Below are positions 28,750-36,367 of a stretch of 64,000 nucleotides of DNA, piece after piece. How positions within the stretch are numbered: position 1 is the first letter of the stretch; the number at the start of each line of letters is the position of its first letter. The notes beneath the pieces were generated by a model. It was not told where the DNA came from, searched no databases, and saw only the letters and a program-made list of their open reading frames with translations. Origin of the DNA: Microlunatus phosphovorus NM-1 (GTDB lineage: Bacteria > Actinomycetota > Actinomycetes > Propionibacteriales > Propionibacteriaceae); NCBI RefSeq assembly GCF_000270245.1, contig NC_015635.1, positions 868,001 through 932,000 on the forward strand, read 5' to 3'. The translations under genes were made by a program, and so were the position numbers.

Positions 28750-28768
28750 GCTAGCGCGCTTGCGACGG

Positions 28769-28834
28769 GATCTGCTCGGGTTTGTCGGTCTTGCTCGATC
28801 TGCAGATAGAGCAAAGCCGACAAGATCGAGCAGG
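28769..28834. repeat. Hairpin repeat, family 1 copy 1
   Basis: GATCTGCTCGGGTTTGTCGG (28769-28788) recurs base for base at 36300-36319. Its partner arm (28817-28834) pairs imperfectly, and an inner hairpin TTGCTC/GAGCAA lies between. It sits between two convergent genes, the polyprenyl synthase and the degenerate ABC subunit, and probably terminates both. The second copy is downstream of katG. Confidence 0.65.
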
Positions 28835-28869: not shown

Positions 28870-29478
28870 TCAGTTGAGGGTGCGGTCGCAGGACTCGATC
28901 ACGGTGGGGTCGTCGCTGGCCAGCAGCACCGCGGCTCCGGTGCGGGTGAGATCGCGAAGCAGTGTCAGTACGCGGGCCCGGTTGGCTGGATCGAGGTCGG
29001 TGGTCACCTGGTCGGCGAGCAGCACACGCGGAGCGGTGGCGAGTGCGCGGGCGATCGACACCCGCTGCTGCTGACCGCCGGAGAGCTCCTCCACCAGGTG
29101 ATCGGCGCTCTCGCCCAGACCGACCGCTGCCAGCGCCTCGTGGGCTGCGCCGACCGGGTCGTCACCGGAGAAGCGACCATCGACGAGCGGCAGCACCACG
29201 TTCTCGTACGCCGTCAGCAGCGAGGCGAGGGCGCCACCGTCCGGAATCAGTGCTACTCCGGCAGCCAGCGCAGCCTCGCGACCGGCGATCGCCTGGCCGT
29301 CCACGGTGACCTCGCCTGCCACCGGCGCACCGAAGCCGGCGGCGATCAAGAACACCTCCGTGGCCTCCCAGACGGTCAGGCCCACCATCTCGCCTGCTTG
29401 GACCGTCCCGGTGAGCGGTGGTCGGTCGCCGACGACCATGTGATCGAACTGAAGTCGCGGTGCGGTGGATGCTGTCAT
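28870..29478 (-). CDS. Degenerate ABC ATP-binding subunit (non-catalytic half)
   Basis: A 202-residue ABC-fold protein. The signature and following helix are intact (LSGGQQQRVSIARAL, about 132-146) and the D-loop is normal (TTDLDPAN). Its own nucleotide site is lost: the Walker A region reads VGLTVWEATEVF (about 32-43) with no GxxGxGKS/T. The Q-loop glutamine is replaced (IPDGG), the catalytic Glu after Walker B is Gln (LLADQVT) and the switch His is Asp (LLASDDP). The adjacent ATPase is degenerate in exactly the other elements. ATG 29478 overlaps that gene's stop. It should form a heterodimer on the FtsX-type permease encoded upstream. Substrate unknown. Confidence 0.85.
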   Translation of the reverse strand: MTASTAPRLQFDHMVVGDRPPLTGTVQAGEMVGLTVWEATEVFLIAAGFGAPVAGEVTVDGQAIAGREAALAAGVALIPDGGALASLLTAYENVVLPLVDGRFSGDDPVGAAHEALAAVGLGESADHLVEELSGGQQQRVSIARALATAPRVLLADQVTTDLDPANRARVLTLLRDLTRTGAAVLLASDDPTVIESCDRTLN

Positions 29479-30356
29479 CGGCCCTCCTTGCCACTGGGTT
29501 CCGTGCCGGCCGGATCGTCACCGACGGGGGAGAGCAGCAGCCCCGGGCCGGCCCGCTCGATCCGTAGCAGCGTGCCCGGCGGATGGTCGGCCAGCACCTC
29601 GGCGGGCAAGGTCACTGAGCCGTCGGCGGTGATCACGCTGTATTCCTGGCCCCGTCGTCCCTCGGCGCCGATCCGGCCGTCGCGGATGGTGACGGTACGC
29701 GGCAACGCGGCGGCGACCGCCGGGTCATGGGTGACGAGCACGACGGTGGTGCCCCAGCGGTCGTTGAGCGTGTCGAGCGCAGCCAGCACCCTATCCCGCT
29801 CCGCGGCTGCCAGCCGACTGGTCGGCTCGTCGGCAAGGAGCAACCGCGGCCGGTGGGCGATGCCACAGGCCAGAGCCAGCAACTGCCGGCTTCCTGGCCG
29901 AAGGGTATCCGCCCGGGCGCTGTCGGGCTCGGTCAACCCGATCAGCTCCAGCACGGCTGCCGGCTCCGGCACATCGGCGCCGGTCCGCTGGGCGGCACGC
30001 TGCGCCAGGAGGATGTTCTCGGCGACTGTGAGATAGGGGAGGACGTTGCGAGAGGCACCCTGCAACACCATGCCGATGGTCGAGGTCCGGAGCCGATCCC
30101 GTTCGGCATCGGGGAGCCTGACGATGTCGGTGCCGTTGAGCAGCAACCGGCCGGCGGTCGGTCGAAGCAGCGCGGCACAGGCCAGCAGCAGTGTCGATTT
30201 GCCCGAGCCGGAGGGGCCGAGCAAACCCACCAGCTCGCCGGCGGTGACGGTCAGGCTCACACCCGAGAGCGCCGCGACATCGTGGCCATCGGCATGGAAG
30301 ACGTGCACCAGATCGCGGGTGACCACCCCGACACCGGTCGGCTCACGGCCGCTCAT
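29475..30356 (-). CDS. ABC ATP-binding subunit (catalytic half, degenerate signature)
   Basis: A 293-residue ABC ATPase. Walker A GPSGSGKST (about 45-53), a Q-loop glutamine in GMVLQGAS, Walker B LLLADEPTS (catalytic Glu about 175) and VTHD (switch His) are intact. The signature is LRPGSRQLLALA in place of LSGGQ, and the D-loop reads SRLAAAE instead of SALD. A C-terminal extension of about 75 residues follows the core (SVITADGSVTLPAEV...). ATG 30356 overlaps the permease stop by four bases, so permease, this subunit and the degenerate subunit are co-translated in that order. Family resembles the LolD/MacB-type ATPases. No substrate gene is nearby. Confidence 0.87.
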   Translation of the reverse strand: MSGREPTGVGVVTRDLVHVFHADGHDVAALSGVSLTVTAGELVGLLGPSGSGKSTLLLACAALLRPTAGRLLLNGTDIVRLPDAERDRLRTSTIGMVLQGASRNVLPYLTVAENILLAQRAAQRTGADVPEPAAVLELIGLTEPDSARADTLRPGSRQLLALACGIAHRPRLLLADEPTSRLAAAERDRVLAALDTLNDRWGTTVVLVTHDPAVAAALPRTVTIRDGRIGAEGRRGQEYSVITADGSVTLPAEVLADHPPGTLLRIERAGPGLLLSPVGDDPAGTEPSGKEGR

Positions 30357-33300
30357 CGCGACGTCCTCAAGACCTCGGCGGAGCGGGCTGCGAGTCGGTG
30401 GGTGCCGAGCAGCACGATGATCCCGACGACGGCCGCTGACCCTGCCAGACACCAGGCCAGGGCCTCGAGGTGCAACGCTCGATCGATGCCGATCACGGCC
30501 GGTGCGTCCGGCACCAAGGGCAGATCGGCGATGACCAGCGCGCAGCCCAGTGCGCCGGCTACCACCCCGGACGCGACGGCGTGCAGTCCCGGTACCAGAT
30601 AGGCGGCATAGACGCTCCGGCGCAAGGTTCGCCGGCGGGTCCCGGCGACGGCCAGCCCGACCAGGTCGCGAGCGAGCACACCGCGGTGGCCCGCCATGAC
30701 CAAGGCCATTCCCAGTGCGGCAAGCACTCCGGCGGCGCCGACGAAGCCGGGGATGACCCCAGCGGTGAGCGCAGCCGCGGTGGTGCGTTGCGCCGCGAGC
30801 GCCGCCGACAACTGGTCGCTTCCGATGATCCTGATCTGGTGGTTGAGGAGTCCCCGGGTGATCTCGGAGGTCCGAGCGGCATCGAAGAGCCAGACCTGCA
30901 CCGAGGTGCGATCACCGACCGGACCGGCACCGCCCCGTAGCACGGAGTCGAGGTCCGCGACCGCGACTCCGGTGAGCTCACGGGGAACAGCGTCGTCGGC
31001 GGCGGCCACCGGGTGGACCGACAGCGGCGAGCCGTCCGGGGCAGCGATCGTCGGGTTGGTGCCGAGCCTGCCGTTGCCGGCATCCAGCACGGGGACCAGT
31101 CCGGGGAGCCAGGCATGCTGCACACCACCCGGCGTACCACCGGTCCGCACCGTCAACTGCAGTCCACCGGGCGCGGAACTCCTGGCCACCTCGGTATTGG
31201 GCGTCTGCACCGGCAACGACTGCCAGCTCTCGCCCTGGCCGAGGTTGACGGGCATCGGCCGGCCGTTCTGCACGGCGTGCAGTCCGGTCAGCGAGACCGT
31301 GCCGTCCATCGGGCCGTTCGGTTCGAGTGTGATCCGCAGCAGCCGACAGCCGTCGGCGCAGTCGACCGGTTGGCGCAGTCGCTGAGCCGGGCCCGGGGCC
31401 AACGGCATCCGACCCAGCTGGAGTCTCAGCGGTCGGCCCCGCGCGGTGAGCAGCTCGAGACCGACCGCTGCGGACGTACCGGTCCGGTTCGCCTCGGTGG
31501 CTCGCAGGTCGCAATGCGCGCCGACGGACAGCTCGACGCTGTCGCCGCGGAGCTCGATCGGTGCGATCGGCGGGGCCGAGATCGCGTCCCAGTCCGGCTG
31601 GCCGACGGTCAGCCCGGCGCCCAGTGCCCGGTGCGCGAAGATGTTCGGCTCCACGAACATCCCCCGGACCGCGGCCTCGTCGACCCGACGGGTGACCACG
31701 ACGACGCTCGTGGCGGCCGAGCCGGTCGCTCGGCCGGGATCGATCGTGTCCAATGCCCGGAGCACGGTGGCGGGATCGCTCGAGACGGTGAACACCTCGG
31801 CGGCGCCGGTGCTGACCTCGGCGATATGGCGCCGCGCGGCGCTGCCGATCAGCAGCAACTGGAGGCCGAACGTCGCCACAGCGGTCGCTAGGCAGATGGT
31901 GACGATCATGATCCGCGAGCCGCGGAGCCGGAGCAGGAGAACCATGGTCAGCAGGACACTCGATGACCTCGGACGCCCCGACCAGCGGGCTCGCACGACT
32001 GCGGCAACGCCCCCGATGGCGCGATGCAGGGCCACCGCGAGTGCGATCGCGGCGAAGGCCGGGACGAGCAGCCCGATCACGCTGTCCGTGCCGACCTGCA
32101 GCGCGACGACGCCGCCGCCGATCCCGACTGTGACCGCCAACAGATCGATGAGCAGGTCGGAGCGTCCTCCACCACGCGCTGACGGTGGGACCGCCCGAAG
32201 CAGCCCGACGACCGGCTGGGCCAGCAGCTGTCGACTGGCCGGGACCATTGCCGTGAGCAGCAACAGCAGGGCGAGGCCTGGTGCGAGGATCAGCACCGGC
32301 GACACCGGCAGGGCTCGGTCGCCGGGCAACTGGCCGGACGTCACCGTCAGCAGCCCGAGCCCCAGCAGCCAGCCCAGTGCCCAGCCGAGCCCGGCTGCGG
32401 CGGCCCAGCGCCCGAGAACCTCCCGGCGCAGGAGGGCGGTCGGTTCACCTCTGAGTCGCGCCAGCCCAAGCTCGGTACGTTGTGCGGCGAGTGTCACACT
32501 CACCAGCAGACCGACGACGACCACGGCCAGCGCGGCCAGCTGGGTCAACAGCAACGCCAGGCCCGCGCGGGCGCGGGATCGTTCGCCGGCGATGTGGTCG
32601 AGACTGTCCGGGATGGACGTCGTCAAGCTGCCTTGGTGTTGAGCTGCCTGCGCGATGAGTTCCGAGGTCGCCGCGGAGAGTGTCGGCAGGTCTGCCAGCT
32701 CGAGCGCCTGCTTGTCCAGCCGGAACTCGAGGGAGTGCTGGACCTGGAAGCCGACGATCAGGTCCTGGGTGGCGTACAGCGGATTGGCGTGCGGAACACC
32801 GTTCTCGTCGAAGCCCGATCGACCGACCGGTGGCACGTCGAACCAATAGGGGTCGGCGATGTCGCGGGCTTGGTAGACCCCGGACACCGTCGCCTCCTGG
32901 GGACTCCCGCCGGTCGCGCCGATCTCCAAGACGTCGCCGGGCCGGGCCCCGTACGCGTTGCTGTCCTCGGCGGCGACGATCACCTCGGCCTCACCGGTGG
33001 GGCAGCGGCCCGTCACGATCACCACGTGGTCGCACAGGTCCTGCCGCCAGCTCAGAGTTCCTTGGACCGCCATGCTGAATCGGGCGCTGCTCCAACTCGA
33101 CCGGACGGTAGCGCCGGCGATCGGATCTCCGAACAGCTCCTCGGTCTCGCTCGGCAGGATCGATCGCAGGTCAGCCTGCTGCAGGCCGGTCAGCCGCCAC
33201 GCATTGCCAGGGCCATCGGCGGCGAAGGTAGCGTCAGCGATGGCCTGCTGCACCTGCCGTTGGTAGCCGGCCGCGAAGATGACCGCGCCGCTGATGAGGG

Positions 33301-33394
33301 CACCAACCAGGATCAGCAGGAGGGTCTGTCCGCGGTGCTGCCACAGCGCGCGGCGGGCCAGCTGCCAGACCCCGAAGCGCCGGATCACCGCCAT
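30353..33394 (-). CDS. FtsX-type ABC transporter permease
   Basis: A 1013-residue permease. The layout is an N-terminal helix (LLLILVGALISGAVIFAAGY, about 24-43), an extracytoplasmic domain of about 230 residues, then clustered helices near 275-300, 325-345, 360-385 and 410-470. IVTICLATAVATFGLQLLL (about 500-518) is followed by a second large external domain of about 350 residues and a last group of three helices at about 870-1000. It is a duplicated FtsX/MacB-like architecture in one chain, so it may supply the whole membrane part. It is the first gene of the three-gene operon. Function (lipid, peptide or lipoprotein handling) is open. Confidence 0.82.
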   Translation of the reverse strand: MAVIRRFGVWQLARRALWQHRGQTLLLILVGALISGAVIFAAGYQRQVQQAIADATFAADGPGNAWRLTGLQQADLRSILPSETEELFGDPIAGATVRSSWSSARFSMAVQGTLSWRQDLCDHVVIVTGRCPTGEAEVIVAAEDSNAYGARPGDVLEIGATGGSPQEATVSGVYQARDIADPYWFDVPPVGRSGFDENGVPHANPLYATQDLIVGFQVQHSLEFRLDKQALELADLPTLSAATSELIAQAAQHQGSLTTSIPDSLDHIAGERSRARAGLALLLTQLAALAVVVVGLLVSVTLAAQRTELGLARLRGEPTALLRREVLGRWAAAAGLGWALGWLLGLGLLTVTSGQLPGDRALPVSPVLILAPGLALLLLLTAMVPASRQLLAQPVVGLLRAVPPSARGGGRSDLLIDLLAVTVGIGGGVVALQVGTDSVIGLLVPAFAAIALAVALHRAIGGVAAVVRARWSGRPRSSSVLLTMVLLLRLRGSRIMIVTICLATAVATFGLQLLLIGSAARRHIAEVSTGAAEVFTVSSDPATVLRALDTIDPGRATGSAATSVVVVTRRVDEAAVRGMFVEPNIFAHRALGAGLTVGQPDWDAISAPPIAPIELRGDSVELSVGAHCDLRATEANRTGTSAAVGLELLTARGRPLRLQLGRMPLAPGPAQRLRQPVDCADGCRLLRITLEPNGPMDGTVSLTGLHAVQNGRPMPVNLGQGESWQSLPVQTPNTEVARSSAPGGLQLTVRTGGTPGGVQHAWLPGLVPVLDAGNGRLGTNPTIAAPDGSPLSVHPVAAADDAVPRELTGVAVADLDSVLRGGAGPVGDRTSVQVWLFDAARTSEITRGLLNHQIRIIGSDQLSAALAAQRTTAAALTAGVIPGFVGAAGVLAALGMALVMAGHRGVLARDLVGLAVAGTRRRTLRRSVYAAYLVPGLHAVASGVVAGALGCALVIADLPLVPDAPAVIGIDRALHLEALAWCLAGSAAVVGIIVLLGTHRLAARSAEVLRTSR

Positions 33395-36266: not shown

Positions 36267-36299
36267 GTTGAGGGGGCGCTGAAGTTTAGCCCCTTCCCG

Positions 36300-36367
36300 G
36301 ATCTGCTCGGGTTTGTCGGTTCTGCACTATCAGCAGATCGAGCAATGCCGACAAACCCGAGCAGATC
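36300..36367. repeat. Hairpin repeat, family 1 copy 2, probable katG terminator
   Basis: A perfect 20-bp inverted repeat: GATCTGCTCGGGTTTGTCGG at 36300-36319 pairs with its exact reverse complement at 36348-36367 across a 28-base loop that holds an inner CTGC/GCAG stem. The left arm equals that of the copy at 28769. It follows katG by 34 bases. Confidence 0.7.

Follow-up and report, generated by a model that had tools for sequence, protein, structure and literature searches.

Among described systems, the one that most resembles the system analysed here in layout is YbbAP(-TesA) of Escherichia coli, a type VII ATP-binding cassette (ABC) transporter. The available excerpts of its description place two copies of YbbA under one pseudosymmetric permease, YbbP, whose transmembrane (TM) segments and ectodomains follow the order TM1-ectodomain-TM2-4, TM5-6, TM7-ectodomain-TM8-10; a single protein, YbbA, fills both ATPase positions (2:1:1 with TesA), an ATP analogue is bound in the conventional way, and the two ectodomains are ∼26% identical (PMC12646458; published systems are cited throughout from excerpts of the articles). 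We describe a three-gene locus in a 64,000-nucleotide stretch of Microlunatus phosphovorus NM-1 (contig NC_015635.1; the whole stretch is called the window, and all coordinates are positions in it), which encodes an FtsX-type permease and two different ABC ATPases, a 293-amino acid protein referred to as big and a 202-amino acid protein referred to as small.

One ATPase used twice is also described for LolCDE, where dimeric LolD serves a heterodimeric permease (PMC8277102), for FtsE and YtrE, and for the type VII systems of Bacillus subtilis in five table rows of a survey (PMC11466899). Lopsided ATP sites are well known in other transporter classes. Searches of the open-licence PMC literature, as far as titles, abstract openings and excerpts extend, gave no report of a degenerate ATPase pair in the type VII (MacB/FtsX) class, and the rarity proposed for this class in a preliminary description of the locus stands to that extent. 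Judged from their sequences, the two ATPases of the window are a conserved, co-inherited pair whose asymmetry is real and conserved at family level. We consider it probable that the locus encodes a YbbAP-like type VII ABC system whose ATPases form a heterodimer with one working ATP site.

Composition of the two ATP sites

In the pair, site 1 is made of the Walker A, Q-loop, Walker B and switch His of big with the signature and D-loop of small, and site 2 of the same elements of small with the signature and D-loop of big. When aligned with its relatives, big has GPSGSGKST, VLQG, ADEP and THD at Walker A, the Q-loop, Walker B and the switch His, and LRPGS and SRLA at the signature and D-loop. 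Small has VWEA at the place of the P-loop, IPDG at the Q-loop, ADQV at Walker B and SDD at the switch, together with LSGGQ and DLD at the signature and D-loop. The preliminary description of these motifs was right in every element checked, and the alignment supports its proposal of one composite site predicted to be intact and one predicted to be lost. Site 2 of the window retains 3 of 10 tallied positions (the Walker B Asp, a Thr at the Walker A Ser/Thr column, and the last Gly of the signature). Big keeps 65 of 70 family-conserved positions and small 31 of 46; of the 15 positions lost from small, 12 coincide with or adjoin the P-loop, the Q-loop, the Walker B Glu or the switch His, and the LSGGQ helix and the D-loop are retained. 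A sequencing frameshift in the P-loop of small was ruled out, as the reading frame is continuous on either side of it and the sequence then returns to residues typical of the family.

Exporters of the TAP or TM287/288 type are believed to bind ATP at their degenerate sites without hydrolysing it there, and site 2 of the window might still behave in this way. Most relatives have an intact Walker A in small, with the opposing signature alone degenerate, which is the usual picture of a site that binds ATP but is slow. In the window, however, small lacks the P-loop Lys and 3 residues of the loop, and the Q-loop Gln, the Glu and the His are gone, making ATP binding at this site very unlikely.

For comparison, we aligned 25 further ABC domains of the host genome, which come from 24 loci among 87 matches. 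The Walker A Lys is kept in all 24 domains that cover it (the 25th, L237, is a fragment without a P-loop), and the Walker B Glu is kept in 25/25. Off-consensus signatures occur in three of the 25 (LPYGD, LSAGQ, and YSAGM), the D-loop Asp is missing in two domains, and the His is absent at its column in one. Because the control domains include off-consensus signatures but keep every Lys, the lost P-loop of small is the rarer feature, and a lone odd signature is less remarkable. A genome-wide looseness of ABC motifs is ruled out by this control.

Conservation of site 1 and wear of site 2

The three-gene family, a membrane system of soil actinobacteria, is spread across Actinomycetes. At E≤0.001, the window permease has matches in 37 of 146 genomes near that of the window, and it is matched in 5 of the 19 other genomes of its genus. 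A profile built from 17 permeases detected the family in 117/391 genomes of the order (E≤1e-60), 33/393 of the class (E≤1e-30), and 8/346 of the phylum (E≤1e-30); the genome of the window is included in each of these counts and in that for the 146 genomes, and the samples share genomes. Another scan yielded 48 loci, including ones from Nocardioides, Kribbella and Intrasporangiaceae, and a contig scan with the window permease alone returned no relative among its 26 pattern matches.

The usual gene order among relatives is permease-big-small, and others include small-permease-permease-big, permease-permease-big-small, and small-big-permease. The small-permease-permease-big loci (L060, L062, L063, L065, L066, L068, L070, and L124) have tandem large permeases and one ATPase pair; at L106, L109, L111, L112, L147, L198, and L223, two tandem permeases likewise lie ahead of big. 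The subunit ratio at these loci may differ.

We examined 111 loci picked by permease score, a choice that favours the window's kin. Big was obtained from 107 of them (all but L075, L129, L132, and L174; L056 and L175 are one place, so these are 106 distinct places) and both ATPases from 101, which bears out the conservation of the pair. At ten key positions, site 1 shows 0 losses over 100-107 loci and 0 losses in 99 paired loci. On the side of big, the Walker A Lys is present in 101/101, the Q-loop Gln in 104/104, and the Walker B Asp and Glu and the switch His in 107/107; on the side of small, the S, G, and G of the signature are each present in 101/101 (LSGG[QE] throughout), and the D-loop Asp in 100/100. 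In six big subunits the Lys column is not covered: five sequences are truncated by the end of the retrieved stretch, and that of L037 was split by domain trimming; the DNA of L037 encodes GPSGAGKST and VIQG, hence it is no exception.

Site 2 has worn away. Judged from the aligned motifs, most of the sampled family has a degenerate form of it, and the window has lost it almost entirely. In big, 75 of the 107 signatures depart from SGG and take 22 forms (LTPGQ, LTPGH, LTRGE, LPPGQ, LGRAD, FGPGD, LRPGS, and others); the first Gly of the signature is retained in 33/107 and the D-loop Asp in 83/107. Small retains the Lys in 97/101, the Gln in 99/101, the Glu in 97/100, and the His in 92/100, and the Lys has been lost in 4 of the 101, in two separate lineages. 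Most relatives keep the Walker A of small, so the window, with site 2 almost wholly lost, stands at the far end of the family's range; complete loss of the second site, as first described, is not the rule among relatives. An intact Walker A in the small subunit of relatives had been put forward as a sign of decay. It is indeed the usual state, but it is not a clear sign of decay because the signature of big is degenerate in 75 of 107 loci and site 1 has no losses.

In a Nocardioides-group branch (L125-L127, L130, L131, L133, and L134; L122 and L164-L168), big keeps MSGG and has lost the D-loop Asp. The D-loops of this branch read SQLS, SQLG, or SQLA, another departure of site 2 from consensus.

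In the set of 48 loci, which was retrieved with an alignment of the degenerate-signature clade and is biased towards it, 44 show big, with a non-SGG signature in 44/44, and 42 show small, with the Walker A Lys and LSGG in 42/42 (L208 has His>Asn). This set overlaps the 111 loci (e.g. L176 is L138), and the two counts are kept apart and not summed. Among the paired loci, the Lys, Glu, or His of small has been lost in 8 of 72 with a non-SGG signature in big versus 0 of 28 with an intact one; L114, where small is cut by a contig end, was excluded from the count of small losses, which stands at 8 of 98 rows and 5 changes.

These data also bear on whether a homodimer of big could do the work, with small merely a regulator or bystander. 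Big alone has every element bar the signature and D-loop, and at two Kribbella-type places (L053 and L056/L175) a permease and big occur without a neighbouring small. A pair of big subunits would, however, carry two degenerate signatures in 75 of the 107 loci, and a mere regulator would not need the LSGG[QE] that small has in 101/101. Both genomes with an unlinked big also retain a small of the family (G132 encodes its small on a different contig from permease and big; G126 combines two big genes with a single small of the family), in line with a dependence of big on small throughout. We therefore regard a working homodimer of big as quite unlikely.

Architecture of the permease

Pfam FtsX matches the window permease at E 2.3e-5 (24.9 bits versus a curated cut-off of 25.5) and 40/40 aligned members at E≤0.1 (best, 2.2e-18); beyond scattered matches in 1-4 members, no second Pfam domain was found in these 40 permeases. 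TM segments were called from the average hydropathy of the 40-member alignment, with a threshold picked by the analyst. Ten were obtained (TM1 at ∼29-39, TM2-4 at 282-384, TM5-6 at 417-459, TM7 at 499-509, and TM8-10 at 881-996), with ectodomain 1 (∼45-275) between TM1 and TM2 and ectodomain 2 (∼515-870) between TM7 and TM8, both placed by hydropathy only. In a profile comparison, the N-terminal membrane half matches the C-terminal one (probability 92.7%, E 4.3e-7), and conserved putative coupling loops follow TM2 (E308..G316) and TM8 (R905..G918). When the permease profile was compared with the PDB, the best sequence matches were YtrF (E 4e-6), LolF, and MacB, and PsdB (E 0.018) and BceB (E 0.13) were also matched.

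The single permease of ∼1000 residues had been presented as an oddity of the locus, but it fits the known ten-helix layout of YbbP (PMC12646458). A YbbP-like permease is itself lopsided and would therefore provide separate places for the two ATPases. In both ectodomains, one Cys pair is invariant across the 40 permeases (C121/C131 and C679/C683) and possibly forms a disulfide.

Order of the losses and selection on small

A 99-row tree was built with the motif columns omitted (8 of the 107 loci were dropped for missing or short partners). The fewest changes on this tree are 3 for the signature and 6 for the D-loop of big; 2 each for the Lys, Gln, and Glu and 5 for the His of small; and 0 for site 1. 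A more careful tree of 40 hand-picked rows, from which the long branches L173 and L135 were left out, places the window as sister to L160 (support 99/96) within a degenerate-signature clade (100/99). When big and small were each given a 42-row tree of their own, both trees joined the window and L160 (95 and 92). L160, whose genome appears to belong to the Nocardioides group, has FGPGD in big and a small with Glu>Asp, His>Asn, and an intact P-loop. A grouping of the window with L071-L073 was rejected by the approximately unbiased test (p 0.0139; the group was chosen after an earlier tree had been seen), and Walker A has therefore probably been lost twice. The genus of the window holds L069 and L074, with intact signatures and Walker A, L071-L073, which have lost the P-loop Lys, and the window itself. 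These data suggest that in the lineage of the window the signature of big was lost first, then the His and Glu of small, and the P-loop last; the order is not readable for L071-L073.

Among L071-L073, the pairwise ratio of nonsynonymous to synonymous substitution (dN/dS) of the Lys-less small is 0.30-0.37 (dN 0.15-0.27, dS 0.40-0.77; three non-independent pairs), and at the same loci it is 0.29-0.39 for the permease and 0.19-0.29 for big. The values for small therefore speak against decay.

Several observations weigh against a constrained, single-site heterodimer of the YbbAP kind. Four pairs of intact small subunits have dN/dS values of 0.05-0.26, lower than those of the Lys-less small, on which constraint may be partly relaxed, somewhat looser though far from absent. 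In the 42-row trees, the branch of the window's small is twice as long as that of its big (1.32 versus 0.66). For the version carried by the window, the scans turned up no close orthologue that could show selection on its small. The association of losses in small with the signature of big has a Fisher p of 0.10 with kinship ignored, and one of the eight loci with such losses, L119, has merely a mild change in big (LAGGE). On the side of the permease, ectodomains 1 and 2 have no mutual similarity (0.5%), and an hhalign comparison with the single E. coli YbbP is weak (probability 17%, E 0.0015) and offset, with the N half of the permease on the C half of YbbP.

The first three of these observations, the loss of 15 of 46 family-conserved positions and the Lys kept in 97 of 101 small subunits would also fit simple decay, by which the window's small is on its way to a pseudogene and has lost its motifs without function. 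This is nevertheless unlikely. The frame of small is open and ATGA-coupled, its losses cluster at the P-loop, Q-loop, Walker B Glu and His and spare the LSGGQ helix and D-loop, big bears the matching loss of signature and D-loop, and a second lineage has lost the same elements with a dN/dS of small well below 1.

Comparison with other transporters

Like YbbAP, the system is predicted to have ten TM segments, ectodomains between TM1 and TM2 and between TM7 and TM8, two halves joined by TM5-6, and one permease for two ATPase subunits, which in YbbAP sit on coupling helices after TM2 and TM8 (PMC12646458). It differs in its two different conserved ATPase genes, its one degenerate site, and its larger and dissimilar ectodomains. 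The BceAB and PsdAB antimicrobial-peptide modules also have a single ten-helix permease, with the weak profile matches to PsdB and BceB given above, but the BceAB ATPase is a single protein used twice. Unlike the window permease, BceB has one ectodomain and partners the sensor kinase BceS (PMC12646458). LolCDE, MacB, FtsEX, and YtrEF share the type VII assignment and the FtsX domain, but they have paired four-TM permeases and one ATPase used twice.

A consensus and a degenerate site in two unlike subunits are shared with TAP, TmrAB, BmrCD, TM287/288, and MsRv1273c/72c, which lack the FtsX fold. Heterodimeric exporters of the TAP type have a type IV fold, with the nucleotide-binding domain (NBD) fused to a six-TM domain. 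A type IV-like exporter was ruled out for the window, where the ATPases and the permease are separate genes and the permease has an FtsX domain. In human transporters, the degenerate sites all have a changed signature (PMC7756269). The closest match in the excerpts to the near-total erasure of the window's site is Pdr5, a yeast ABCG protein, where the whole site is changed (Walker A Lys>Cys, Glu>Asn, His>Tyr, and a signature of LNVEQ; PMC7756269). Pdr5 differs in being a single polypeptide with two fused NBDs and another membrane fold, and the excerpts state no P-loop deletion for it. A degenerate site with a lost Walker A Lys and an off-consensus signature is also described for RbsA and NupO of B. 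subtilis, which, unlike the system in the window, are type II importers with fused ATPases (PMC11466899).

The operon and its surroundings

The host genome has 5,683,123 bases on one contig. The three predicted open reading frames (ORFs) were confirmed on the minus strand, tightly coupled in the order permease, big, small from 33394 to 28870, and both junctions are ATGA overlaps (Table 1). The start of big was placed at ATG 30356 because this ATG overlaps the stop of the permease as ATGA; the alternative ORF of 325 amino acids from 30452, which lies partly inside the permease gene, was set aside. The Pfam ABC_tran match of small starts only downstream of the P-loop position, and the best model scores of the ATPases are for LolD, FtsE, and DevA, all far under the curated cut-offs.

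Table 1. Genes and ATP-site motifs of the locus (positions in the window)
Feature	Position	Strand	Basis
FtsX-type permease, 1013 aa	30353..33394	-	ORF; Pfam FtsX; hydropathy
Big ABC ATPase, 293 aa	29475..30356	-	ATGA-overlap start; Pfam ABC_tran 2e-25 (longer ORF); motif alignment
Small ABC ATPase, 202 aa	28870..29478	-	ORF; Pfam ABC_tran 9.6e-15, residues 47-159; alignment
Big Walker A GPSGSGKST (site 1)	30192..30218	-	alignment; Lys kept in 101/101 covering big subunits
Big degenerate signature LRPGS for LSGGQ (site 2)	29889..29903	-	non-SGG in 75/107 big
Big degenerate D-loop SRLA (site 2)	29808..29819	-	Asp lost in 24/107 big
Small GLTVWEATEV versus relatives' forms like AVTGPSGAGKSSL; P-loop lost, 3-residue deletion (site 2)	29353..29382	-	alignment
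Small Q-loop Gln to Asp, residue 80 (site 2)	29239..29241	-	alignment
Small intact signature LSGGQ (site 1)	29071..29085	-	SGG kept in 101/101 small
Small catalytic Glu to Gln, residue 157 (site 2)	29008..29010	-	alignment
Small switch His to Asp, residue 189 (site 2)	28912..28914	-	alignment

A polyprenyl synthetase gene lies downstream, in convergent orientation, and the upstream neighbours are a Fur-family gene, a 799-amino acid peroxidase-family gene that we take to be KatG-like, and genes for a pyridoxal phosphate-dependent enzyme and an M13 peptidase. None of the five window neighbours that were scanned is TesA-like; in relatives, the flanking genes were not compared with family models. 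The top 14 clusters of flanking ORFs and the genes around 12 loci gave no linked partner that would point to a substrate, and the flanking clusters tracked the chromosomal neighbourhood within the Kribbella or the Nocardioides/Intrasporangiaceae group. At L177, L203, and L205, in the latter group, a protein of ∼100 amino acids starting MLIAFSVAPT or similar is encoded upstream of the operon, which probably reflects a shared chromosomal neighbourhood.

Between the small and polyprenyl synthetase genes, at 28768-28833, lies a palindrome of ∼65 bases with 31-nucleotide arms, 81% complementary and without a spacer. It belongs to an interspersed family with 66 genome matches at E≤0.001 (both strands counted, many places twice), and a further copy lies near 36299-36367.

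Discussion

The preliminary description spoke of an exporter and of an undescribed class. Both terms exceed the evidence, and the locus looks like a variant of the YbbAP type within type VII. We propose that one pseudo-dimeric ten-helix permease with two ectodomains would be driven by big and small acting together as a heterodimer, in a predicted 1:1:1 complex. The pair would bind and hydrolyse ATP at site 1 only, with site 2 of the window serving as a nucleotide-free contact or hinge. Closure of the dimer on one ATP would be passed through the two coupling loops to the ectodomains, which may do mechanical work at the outer face; by analogy with the proposal for YbbAP, the most likely job would be to extract or hand over a hydrophobic or envelope molecule.

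On balance, we favour the view that this is a natural single-site type VII motor, in which the P-loop Lys of the second site has been lost in two lineages and closure on one ATP suffices. The family data suggest that the steps of a path have been preserved, from two intact sites to a broken signature, then to lost catalytic residues and finally to a lost P-loop. This would extend site asymmetry to type VII, and it bears on the number of ATP molecules used per stroke by MacB/FtsX-type machines and on the purpose of degenerate ATP sites. Since natural versions with two intact sites, with one degenerate site, and with one nearly erased site share a single fold and are found even within one genus, these questions may be tested on real proteins rather than on mutants.

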